Shown one piece after another: positions 39,301 through 43,169 of a DNA stretch of 60,909 bases. Made by a program: the position numbers and the translations under genes. Each line of letters begins with the position of its first letter. The stretch's first letter is position 1. The notes beneath the pieces are model-generated. The model was not told the DNA's origin. It ran no database searches and saw nothing but the letters and a program-made list of their open reading frames with translations. Origin of the DNA: Clostridia bacterium. Lineage in GTDB: Bacteria > Bacillota_A > Clostridia > Christensenellales > CAG-138. The stretch covers positions 1 to 60,909 of the forward strand of contig JAFPXU010000117.1 in NCBI GenBank assembly GCA_017394605.1. Reading direction: 5' to 3'.

Positions 39301-40330
39301 CGCCATCCGAATGCTGCAGGACGTGACAGGCATCAACCCGAGGACCATCCCGCTGGACGACCCCGAAACGAGAAGCCTGTTCTCATCGCCTGAGGCGCTC
39401 GGAATCGACCTTTCCAAGATCAACTGCACCGTCGGATCTCTGGGCGTTCCGGAATTCGGTACGGAATTCGTACGCGGAGTTCTGGAAAGCACGAAACCGA
39501 CCACGATGGAAGAGTTTGTCCGTATTTCCGGCCTCACGCACGGAACGGACGTCTGGCTGAACAACGCGGAGCCTCTCGTCACGAACCATATCGCCAAGCT
39601 TTCAGAGGTCCTCTGCACGCGTGACGATATCATGAATTACCTGATCGCGCACGGCATGGACGCTTCGGTTTCCTTCTCGATCATGGAGAAGGTGCGTAAG
39701 GGAAAGGGGCTGTCGGAGGAGCATGAGAAGGCGCTGGCCGACGGCAACATACCGGAATGGTTCATCGATTCCTGCAAAAAGATCAAATACATGTTTCCGA
39801 GAGGACACGCGGTCGCCTACGTTACGATGGCATTCCGGATCGCGTACTTCAAGGTGCATTACCCGCTCGCGTTCTACGCGGTCTATTTCTCCGTCCGCGC
39901 CGATATCTTCGACGTGACGAAATCGCTCGGCGGACCGGAGAAGGTACTCGCGGTCATCAAGGAACTCAGCAAGGATTCCCAGAATAAGGAAGCCGCTGAA
40001 AAGAAACGCGACCGCGAACTCCAGACGATCCTTGAGCTGGTATACGAGATGAATCTCAGGGGGATCGAGCTGCTTCCGGTCGACATCTACAAATCGGACG
40101 CGACGAAGTTCCTGATCGAAGGGAACGCGCTGAGACCGCCGTTCAATTCCATTCCCGGGATCGGCGATACCGCCGCTATCTCGATCGTCAAGAACAGGGG
40201 GGACAGCAGATTTGTTTCCGTTGAGGACTTCCAGAACAGAACGGGCGCCAACACGGGTGTTACCGCCATGCTGGAAGAGTGCGGATGTTTTATGAATCTT
40301 CCGAAAACAAATCAGATATCACTGTTTTGA
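36344..40330 (+). CDS. polC: DNA polymerase III alpha subunit, PolC type
   Basis: 1328 residues, slightly shorter than many PolC proteins (about 1430). In order: an OB-type domain near 120-220, PHP domain (ELHLHTRMSTMDGL near 235), inserted DEDDh 3'-5' exonuclease (FDIETTGLKYKN near 314, with HNAKFDTSF), a zinc module CPKC...CPKCG near 797-825, the palm aspartates in GDKTPDIDLNFSGEY near 850, and the finger and helix-hairpin-helix end. It is the replicative polymerase of low-GC Gram-positives. The ATG at 36344 is chosen over an in-frame TTG at 36320; neither has a strong ribosome-binding site. The short N-terminus may reflect a reduced domain I. Confidence 0.95.
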   Translation: MEGAPKPTESNMYVEKAVLQKSQNRLVLYCAENVRMTDAESVDLIESYARLFPNLHVVLGKTGDDIPQAPIPREEAQSAQGMVFAKSEKPAEKRDASILYGSKIRETKGMPIHDLTDGTGLTVISGHILSGEMKEGWAGRRGGQQGQQHASYRIQFTFTDDTDSIYCVFSFAEESRAQKFYDLISPYFGTDQEFLIKGVCKMPKFSKEILFYPNDINLTEKKKRTDTSPDKRVELHLHTRMSTMDGLTDLTKAFMTAKAFGHKALAVTDHGVVQAFPEAAKAAKKSGVKAIYGVEGYLLPDCAFVPVTSDHVVFDIETTGLKYKNCDIIEIGAVKVSGGEIVDRFQTFVNDGAVIPPNISALTHITNDMIAGAPSSNEVLRSFREFCEGCYLVAHNAKFDTSFIKYHGAKHGIDFPMPVADTLMLSRYLLHDLPNHKLDTICEHFSIDLSNHHRASDDAEATSEIFDRFCGMIRELGSDQIPVYENLAEEEDEKTAGHTNHIIILAKTQAGMKNLYRLVSYAHLDYFRKRPRIPKSLLSIYRSGLILGSACEQGELYRAILAGREEDEIRRIASFYDYFEIQPDGNNQFMVRERIVDSVEDLHEINRKIISLGKELGRPVAATGDVHFLNPEDAVYRKLLLCKLGFKDAEFQAPLYFKTTDEMLSDFSYLDEETARSVVIDVPNRIADMCDVLKPFPDGTHAPEIPNASEILRDMTLKRAHEIYGDPLPDLIQKRLDKELTSIIGNGFASLYLMAQRLVHKSESDGYLVGSRGSVGSSFVATMAGITEVNPLPAHYVCPKCKYTEFNSVQMDSACGLDMPDKNCPKCGTLLKKQGFDIPFEVFLGFHGDKTPDIDLNFSGEYQPIAHKYVEEMFGKGHAFRAGTISGLAERKAFECIFHYQDETGTVFRNAEMERLCKGCLNVKVTTGQHPGGIVIVPKEDDILDYTPVQYPADKQDKNTITTHFDFHAMDDRLVKLDILGHDDPTAIRMLQDVTGINPRTIPLDDPETRSLFSSPEALGIDLSKINCTVGSLGVPEFGTEFVRGVLESTKPTTMEEFVRISGLTHGTDVWLNNAEPLVTNHIAKLSEVLCTRDDIMNYLIAHGMDASVSFSIMEKVRKGKGLSEEHEKALADGNIPEWFIDSCKKIKYMFPRGHAVAYVTMAFRIAYFKVHYPLAFYAVYFSVRADIFDVTKSLGGPEKVLAVIKELSKDSQNKEAAEKKRDRELQTILELVYEMNLRGIELLPVDIYKSDATKFLIEGNALRPPFNSIPGIGDTAAISIVKNRGDSRFVSVEDFQNRTGANTGVTAMLEECGCFMNLPKTNQISLF

Positions 40331-40332
40331 AC

Positions 40333-40361
40333 TTGACGCTGATTTTATGGTTTTGTATAAT
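40333..40361 (+). promoter_or_regulatory. RNase Y promoter
   Basis: TTGACG (40333-40338), a 17-bp spacer and a perfect TATAAT (40356-40361). It starts two bases after the polC stop, so no terminator separates polC from this unit other than the attenuator below. Confidence 0.9.
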
Positions 40362-40367
40362 AGTTTA

Positions 40368-40505
40368 GTAAAAGAATACCTGCACTTTTAGTGCGTTCAT
40401 ATAGATATCTAATCGATTTTTAAAGCGATGCTTTTTTTGTGATATACACTATCTACGGAACGTTTTACCGGGCAGGTATTCTGTCCGGTTATTTTTTTTT
40501 TGAAT
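40368..40505 (+). promoter_or_regulatory. candidate riboswitch or attenuator in the RNase Y leader
   Basis: The leader can adopt two exclusive folds. The antiterminator fold is closed by a perfect 10-bp helix, GAATACCTGC (40374-40383) with GCAGGTATTC (40472-40481). It encloses a small hairpin (CAC/GTG, 40384-40393) and a long arm formed by CGTTC (40394-40398) with GAACG (40458-40462) and TAGATA (40402-40407) with TATCTA (40450-40455), that is, a three-way junction. The terminator fold uses the same 40472-40481 strand. No known riboswitch class was recognised by eye. Readthrough would require stabilising the closing helix, so a ligand or protein would act as an ON signal (inference). Confidence 0.6.
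40467..40501 (+). terminator. attenuator terminator before rny
   Basis: A 9-bp stem with one G-U pair (40467-40475 with 40481-40489, loop GTATT) is followed by TATTTTTTTTTT. It lies inside the rny leader, 17 nt before the start codon, and also stops polC readthrough. Confidence 0.9.
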
Positions 40506-40517
40506 GGAGAATGGCAT

Positions 40518-42059
40518 ATGTCTTTGTGGTTGACGATATTGATTGCATTGATAGCCGGCCTGATCTGCCTGTTCATCGGATATTACTACAGAAAGAACGT
40601 GGCGGAAGCGAAGATAGAGAAAGCGGAAGAAACCGTCAAGAAACTCTATGACGACGCGAAAGGAAAAGCGGCTGACATTAAGAAGGAAATGATCCTCGAG
40701 GCGAAAGAGGAAGTTATCAAGATCCGGAACGAAGCGGAACGCGAGAACCGCGAACGTCGCAACGAACTCCAGAAAACGGAAAGAAGGCTGTTCCAGCGCG
40801 AAGAGGTCATCGATAAGAAACTGGACGGCATCGAACTGAGAGAGAAGGCGCTTGCCAACAAGGAAGCGGATGTCGAAAGAATGGAGAACGACATCTCCGA
40901 GATCAAGCAGCAGCAGCTGCACGAACTGGAACGGATCTCCGGCATGTCCATGGAGACCGCAAAGCAGATCCTTCTGGAAAACGTGGAACAGGAAGCGCGT
41001 CATGACGCGGCGGTCCTGATCAGGGACATCGAGGCGAAGACAAAGGAGGAAGCGGACAAGAAGGCGAGGAACATCATCACGATGGCGATCCAGCGCTGTG
41101 CCGCCGATCAGGTTGCGGAAGCGACCGTATCCGTCGTGCCCCTCCCGAATGACGAAATGAAAGGCCGCATCATCGGCCGTGAGGGCAGAAATATCCGCGC
41201 TCTGGAAACCGCGACCGGCATCGACCTGATCATCGACGATACGCCGGAAGCCGTGATCCTTTCCGGATTTGATCCCGTCCGTCGTGAGATCGCGCGAATC
41301 GCTCTGGAGAAACTCATCCTGGACGGACGTATCCATCCAGCGCGTATCGAGGAAATGGTCGAGAAGGCGAAAAAGGAAGTGGATGCCGCGATCCGCGAAG
41401 CGGGCGAACAGGCTGTTCTGAGCACCGGCGTCAACGGACTGCATCACGAGCTGATCCGTCTGCTCGGCAGAATGCGCTACCGCACGAGCTATGGTCAGAA
41501 CGTACTGAACCATTCCATCGAGGTTTCCCATCTTGCCGGCCTCATGGCAAGCGAGATCGGCGCGAATGTCGCGCTGGCGAAGAGAGCGGGCCTGCTGCAT
41601 GATATCGGCAAATCCATCGATCATGAGGTCGAGGGCGCTCATTCCCAGATCGGTGCGGATCTTGCCAAGAAGTACAGAGAAAGCAATCAGGTCGTCCACG
41701 CGATCATGGCACATCACGGAGACGTGGAGCCGACGACAATCGAGGCTGTGCTTGTCCAGGCCGCCGACGCCATTTCCGCTGCAAGGCCGGGCGCGCGCAG
41801 AGAAACGCTCGAGACTTACATCAAGCGTCTGGAGAAACTGGAAGAGATCGCCAATTCGTTTGACGGCGTCGATTCCTCATACGCAATCCAGGCCGGACGC
41901 GAAGTCCGCATCATCGTCAAGCCCGAGCAGGTCAACGACGCGGATACCGTCCTGATCGCCAGGGACATCGCCAAGCGCATCGAGGATGAACTTGAGTATC
42001 CGGGACAGATCAAGGTCAACGTCATCCGCGAGACCCGCACGGTCGATTACGCGAAATAA
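40518..42059 (+). CDS. rny: ribonuclease Y
   Basis: 513 residues. One N-terminal membrane helix ([19 protein letters not shown]) is followed by a long coiled coil (about 30-200), a KH domain ([19 protein letters not shown]) and an HD endonuclease domain ([18 protein letters not shown]). RNase Y starts mRNA decay in Firmicutes and anchors the degradosome-like network at the membrane. GGAGA (40506-40510) sets the ATG at 40518. Expression is probably controlled by the terminator-containing leader. YlbF, a member of a complex that steers RNase Y in Bacillus, is encoded 10 kb away. Confidence 0.97.
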
Positions 42060-43095: not shown

Positions 43096-43169
43096 AGGGG
43101 CATGATGTAATGGTAACATAGCGGTCTCCAAAACCGTTCTTCTGAGTTCGAATCTTAGTGCCCCTGCCA
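43096..43169 (+). tRNA. tRNA-Trp (anticodon CCA)
   Basis: The acceptor stem AGGGGCA (43096-43102) pairs with TGCCCCT (43159-43165), with discriminator G and an encoded CCA end (43167-43169). The anticodon CCA is at 43138-43140 in loop CTCCAAA, and the T-arm carries GTTCGAAT. It has its own promoter and terminator and is the only tRNA gene in the window. Confidence 0.97.

Follow-up and report, generated by a model that had tools for sequence, protein, structure and literature searches.

The rny locus and the helices of its leader

The window, that is, the whole analysed stretch of 60,909 nucleotides, contains an rny gene and, between promoter and gene, a leader of about 150 nt. Upstream of the leader lies a polC-type gene encoding DNA polymerase III alpha domains, whose open reading frame ends at 40330. 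The rny product carries the RNase_Y_N, HD and KH_1 domains (PF12072, PF01966 and PF00013), all above the Pfam cut-offs, in agreement with the preliminary description, which had named rny as the controlled gene. In many Firmicutes, mRNA decay is initiated by RNase Y, of which a steady supply is needed. The features of the locus are the following.

40333..40361, + strand: promoter TTGACG-17-TATAAT, 11/12 consensus matches
40373..40383, + strand: P1 5' strand (antiterminator), AGAATACCTGC, part of an 11-bp perfect inverted repeat
40382..40394, + strand: P2 hairpin GCAC-UUUUA-GUGC, from the RNAalifold consensus of 30 leaders
40394..40462, + strand: P3 arm, pairings 40394-40398/40458-40462 and 40402-40407/40450-40455, in the window and L083
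40467..40489, + strand: T, a terminator-type hairpin, ACCGGGCAG/CTGTCCGGT with loop GTATT, from a terminator scan, arms read by eye
40472..40482, + strand: P1 3' strand, GCAGGTATTCT, 100% complementary to the 5' strand and overlapping the T 5' arm and loop
40490..40501, + strand: U-tract of T, TA followed by ten T, read from the sequence
40506..40509, + strand: Shine-Dalgarno GGAG, read from the sequence
40518..42059, + strand: rny, encoding RNase Y, ATG at 40518, from Pfam domains

Most elements of the preliminary description are recovered in this arrangement. The promoter is near-consensus, much as claimed, and the small hairpin and both arm pairings are present in the window. The long-range helix, described earlier as ten perfect base pairs, is indeed perfect and is one pair longer (11 bp, 40373-40383/40472-40482). 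Its 3' strand overlaps the 5' arm and loop of T, which is followed by the U-tract. An intrinsic terminator is predicted between the promoter of rny and its start codon. P1 and T have bases in common and cannot coexist; bases 40382-40383 are additionally shared by P1 and P2.

The two folds are nearly equal in predicted energy. The segment 40365-40505 folds at -35.5 kcal/mol against a shuffled mean of -22.86 (z -3.44; 1/200 shuffles as good), and in its most stable fold T is formed and the U-tract pairs with the 5' end. Over 40367-40502 the P1 state is the most stable, at -35.1 kcal/mol compared with -33.9 kcal/mol when T is forced, and the ensemble pair probabilities are about 0.6 for P1 and about 0.4 for T. 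In the nearest relative, L083, the corresponding values are -31.9 for the P1 state and -33.5 for the T state. Folding of growing-transcript prefixes places the formation of P1 from 40478 on, earlier than T can form. Between the window and L083, none of the 22 P1 positions is changed, against 24 of 122 positions elsewhere (P 0.025). Near-equal energies and conservation in relatives thus bear out the earlier proposal of mutually exclusive P1 and terminator folds.

Two further features of the region stand apart from the leader fold. A tRNA gene at 43096-43166, downstream of rny, is the sole Rfam match of the window at gathering score. A 17-nt inverted repeat (40304-40320/40404-40420, 76% complementary) is probably due to chance, because its first arm lies before the promoter.

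Leader types, conservation and gene specificity

A contig scan with the RNase Y of the window found at least 551 stretches encoding relatives, and the best 80 of these at least 551, mostly clostridial, were used; among those 80, similar leaders occur in L001 and L014. In the clostridial family to which the L001 genome belongs, an RNase Y match is present in 96 of 103 genomes; that of G009 (locus L083) is the closest, with 97% identity to the protein of the window. Upstream regions from 90 of these 96 genomes, the remaining six having mostly split genes, together with the window give a set of 91 leaders: at least 45 of type A (43 plus the cut copies L094 and L115), 15 of type B, 13 of type C, 8 of type D and 10 unplaced. 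Type A follows the order promoter, RAGTAATCCTGCAC-loop-GTGCGTTCAT, variable middle, T, AU-rich stretch and GGAG, and the window is a divergent member of it. Type B has a different P1, the 3' strand of which shares three columns with a hairpin. The leaders of types C and D are shorter and have no separate T; in 7/7 type-D sequences the entire leader is closed at its 5' end by six outer pairs, five of them invariant and hence without covariation. Types A, C and D all end in a helix, an AU-rich stretch and the Shine-Dalgarno sequence. Two family leaders outside types A-D, L165 and L166, are mutually similar and much longer, with about 300 nt from the -10 box to the gene start.

A TTGAC box precedes 51/51 leaders of types A and B, pooled and chosen through a start motif whose regular expression demanded the -10 box and left the -35 box free. 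In the same 51 leaders the -10 box lies 2-7 nt from the start motif.

The structure alignment of 30 type-A leaders yields an RNAalifold consensus consisting of P2 and T and no further helix. P3 is therefore missing from it, and the three-way junction previously suggested is not supported as a conserved fold. Specifically, 95.8% of cells are paired in P2, with one pair changed on both sides, and 95.5% in T, with three such pairs; together the two helices have 95.6% of cells paired and 11 cells changed on both sides. None of 500 shuffles reaches the paired percentage, the number of two-sided cells or the covariation score, and on the other two of the five measures, two-sided pairs and further pair types, 63/500 and 43/500 shuffles do so. 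Conservation and covariation in relatives are accordingly present for P2 and T. The expectation of compensatory changes is borne out for these two helices and not for P1, where the four conserved columns (CUGC/GCAG; 97.4% of cells paired in the same 30 leaders) never change on both sides and so prove nothing. P1 is consequently not upheld as a column-wise covarying helix, and the case for it rests on the register-free complementarity tests described below. On types B and C, RNAalifold gives weak structures. In type B, P1 has 93.3% of cells paired with one two-sided pair, and T has 77.9% paired, not above shuffles on most measures.

The conservation of T as a helix differs from its quality as a terminator. 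Among the 42 type-A tails tabulated, only those of the window and L083 have 7/8 T, the other 40 having 4-6/8, and in the type-A alignment the stem of T often extends into the tail. Judged from these sequences, the terminator reported earlier is convincing in the lineage of the window and uncertain elsewhere; the hairpin itself is conserved. Because the U-tract is weak in 40/42 tails and the stem runs into the tail, termination may not be the conserved task of T.

The element is tied to a single gene. A covariance model built from type-A leaders was run with stricter filters, under which weak matches may be lost. Among 103 family genomes it finds 47 places at E below 1e-4, in 46 genomes, and all but one of the 47 are immediately followed by an rny match or a fragment of rny. 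The exception, in G066, ends exactly at a contig end, while the other place in this genome precedes rny at the start of another contig; we read the two as one leader split in assembly. Of four weaker family places (E 0.28-0.95), one, in G091 (C64), is situated just upstream of rny. When 396 genomes sampled from the order were searched, 15 yielded a match with E no higher than 0.1; 13 of these have E 4.4e-5 or below, each just before rny, and the loci of the two weak ones (G259, G316) contain no rny match. Moreover, the order promoter, terminator and start is found before 53/167 rny genes (45/91 in the family set, 8/76 outside) and before 4/228 further genes at those loci, of which two are themselves rny judging by their opening residues. 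The N-termini encoded by the other two, L041 and L054, are alike, and another gene family may carry an attenuator.

Rfam gives no match for the leader at gathering scores. The best low-threshold match is to L20_leader, at 19.2 bits (gathering score 58.7; E 0.12), and it comes from the hairpin and U-run. This match, ten others in the window stretch and a Pedo-repair match outside the L114 leader were judged to be due to chance.

Complementarity between the 5' end and the terminator hairpin

By eye, each clade pairs its 5' end with T in a register of its own. The pairing of the window and L083 spans 11 bp at the 5' end; in L100 and its kin (A)CGCUCGGU pairs with ACCGGGCG(U), in L137 GUGCUGCC pairs with GGCAGCAC, and in L086 and L171 CUGCAC pairs with GUGCAG.

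In the swap test, the 5' region of each leader, taken as its first 40 nt, is paired with the T 5' arm plus loop of the same leader, and the duplex energy is compared with that obtained when partners are swapped between leaders. For 20 hand-picked representatives the own pairing averages -13.4 and the permuted mean is -11.5 (sd 0.39; 0/20000 permutations as low). With one row per clade (n=10, likewise hand-picked) the result persists (z -4.5, 0/20000), and leaving out the window again gives 0/20000. When four other segments of the same leaders serve as targets, P is 0.49-0.69. Type B, tested in the same manner with 12 sequences, gives P 0.0066.

The shuffle test uses dinucleotide shuffles of the 5' part against the T 5' arm plus loop. 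With 12 family representatives, also hand-picked, the combined P is 1.1e-5 for the whole 5' part and 1.9e-10 for the first 45 nt, values that treat related sequences as independent; the control target, the T 3' arm with tail, gives P 0.47 and 0.30. The bare T arm gives no signal (P 0.17 for 16 family representatives and 0.20 outside the family, hand-picked as well). The target was widened to arm plus loop after this null result, because P1 uses the loop; the earlier swap tests already used arm plus loop. Single leaders above 0.05 are L086 and L109 in both settings and L171, L097 and L117 for the whole part only, and L124 has no 5'/T pairing in this test. For eight leaders from beyond the family, arm plus loop yields P 0.43 and 0.46, hence no signal there. 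On these sequence comparisons, complementarity of the 5' region to the T 5' arm and loop is kept in most clades by different letters.

A candidate attenuator and competing explanations

Both folds, their conservation, the kept complementarity and the link to rny alone are established at the level of sequence. The reading we consider to have about an even chance is that the rny leader is a bistable, cis-acting transcription attenuator through which RNase Y or a partner exerts feedback. We infer termination in vivo, the direction of control and the trigger. In the ON state, the 5' end of the transcript would pair with the T 5' arm and loop as P1, T would be blocked and transcription would enter rny. 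In the OFF state, P2 and T would form and, in the lineage of the window with its canonical U-tract, transcription would stop just before the Shine-Dalgarno sequence. Since P1 is complete before the 3' arm of T has been made, readthrough would be the default and something must favour P2 plus T. The putative trigger is RNase Y, or else a partner protein, bound to the conserved 5' hairpin together with the GUUCAU-NAUAG flank of that hairpin; the consequence of such binding would be negative feedback on RNase Y. A more far-reaching version, which we hold to be doubtful, is that the leader represents an undescribed RNA family whose nascent 5' hairpin is recognised by RNase Y or a degradosome partner, so that the terminator is turned on, with related two-state or 5'-closing leaders occurring family-wide.

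The main rival, which we regard as a tentative alternative, is post-transcriptional feedback: the leader would be a protective folded 5' cap, RNase Y would cut the AU-rich stretch before the Shine-Dalgarno sequence, and T would act as a barrier. The common ending of types A, C and D, the six closing pairs of type D (7/7, five invariant) and the mostly weak U-tracts agree with this arrangement, as does the cutting by B. subtilis RNase Y of its own 5' UTR (PMC10303841). Against it stand the canonical U-tract in the window and L083 and the retention in type A of the exclusivity between P1 and T, although a simple closed stem would do; in type B, furthermore, there is support for P1 but not for T, which fails to exceed most shuffles. 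A plainer explanation, which we hold to be improbable, is a constitutive terminator or insulating hairpin that is complementary to the 5' end by chance and has no regulatory role. GC-rich words (CTGC/GCAG) do supply part of the complementarity, and the bare-arm shuffle test is not significant; however, T sits between rny's own promoter and start, and the swap and shuffle tests are positive with null controls.

A metabolite riboswitch, in which a small molecule would hold the leader in one of its two folds, was among the ideas put forward in the preliminary description, and it now appears distinctly improbable. The architecture does resemble that of transcriptional riboswitches and letters are conserved in the 5' domain, but 46/47 confident model places adjoin rny only, so that no metabolic gene hints at a metabolite, the gathering and low-threshold Rfam searches give no match to a riboswitch family, and the leader varies in its middle part. 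The sequence support for two exclusive folds under selection, together with the link to rny alone, favours feedback over a metabolite. By analogy, action of RNase Y on its own leader, an alternative already named in the preliminary description, would also fit the autoregulation reported for B. subtilis (PMC10303841) better than a metabolite does. Attenuation by a leader peptide is a generic possibility and is here very improbable: the open reading frames of at least 20 amino acids comprise one that starts upstream of the promoter, a GTG frame at 40439 that runs through T into rny, and rny itself, none of the leader frames being a plausible candidate.

If the conserved terminator switch before rny is real, it adds control at the level of transcription elongation; the conserved 5' hairpin would likewise be a concrete candidate for a sequence-specific site at which RNase Y or a partner binds. 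In transcriptional riboswitches and ribosomal-protein leaders, a promoter is followed by a folded leader, an intrinsic terminator and the gene. The rny leader has the same order of parts; unlike these systems it comes without evidence of a ligand, and its L20_leader match is far below the gathering score.

Among RNase genes, the nearest parallels are leaders through which the enzyme feeds back on its own message. In B. subtilis, RNase Y cleaves its mRNA in the 5' UTR and early coding region and so reduces the level of that mRNA. The 164-nt leader there is similar in length to the present one and, as is proposed here too, a target of feedback on RNase Y supply; control is by cleavage, however, and the sections of that report used here describe neither a terminator switch nor a defined recognition sequence (PMC10303841). 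Its authors, who report no features that predict RNase Y cutting sites, set this enzyme apart from RNase E, for which binding of a stem-loop in the leader is described (PMC10303841). In E. coli, this stem-loop in the rne 5' UTR is a part of an RNase mRNA bound by the enzyme itself, but the control acts on mRNA stability, and the accounts drawn on describe no exclusive terminator (PMC10303841, PMC10989929). In Synechocystis 6803, cleavage of the RNase E leader takes place within a U-run, and autoregulation is reported to involve premature termination (PMC10989929). That case shares with ours the leader of a main decay endonuclease and, as proposed here, premature termination; it differs in the enzyme and in cleavage within the leader U-run (PMC10989929). 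Autoregulation through the RNase Y 5' UTR and premature termination in an RNase E leader are thus already published. The titles and opening abstract lines of the open-access literature searched describe no such leader for rny or RNase Y, and the main text of two surveys of attenuators and structured RNAs names no rny, ymdA or RNase (PMC2965389, PMC8040213); the rny element was found neither in Rfam nor in this literature.

Leaders of rny beyond the family have features of their own. Hairpin arms resembling CCGAG/CTCGG are seen by eye before rny in other Clostridia, but the 5'-pairing test on eight leaders from outside the family came out negative. In L192, from the order and outside the family search, a terminator GACCGAGA/TCTCGGTC is present and a 5' UUCGGUC might pair with the 5' arm of this terminator (P 0.022 when the bare arm is the target, but 0.13-0.18 with arm plus loop). 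Eight leaders from Clostridium or similar genomes (L024, L026, L033, L046, L048, L051, L053 and L070) have in common ACACCUUUU upstream of the Shine-Dalgarno sequence AAGGAGGUGU; judged by eye, the two could pair, which suggests sequestration of the ribosome site. Additionally, in L064, L074 and L076 a hairpin followed by TTTTTGTGCGG or a similar run lies early in the rny leader, a possible further terminator before rny in a different clade.
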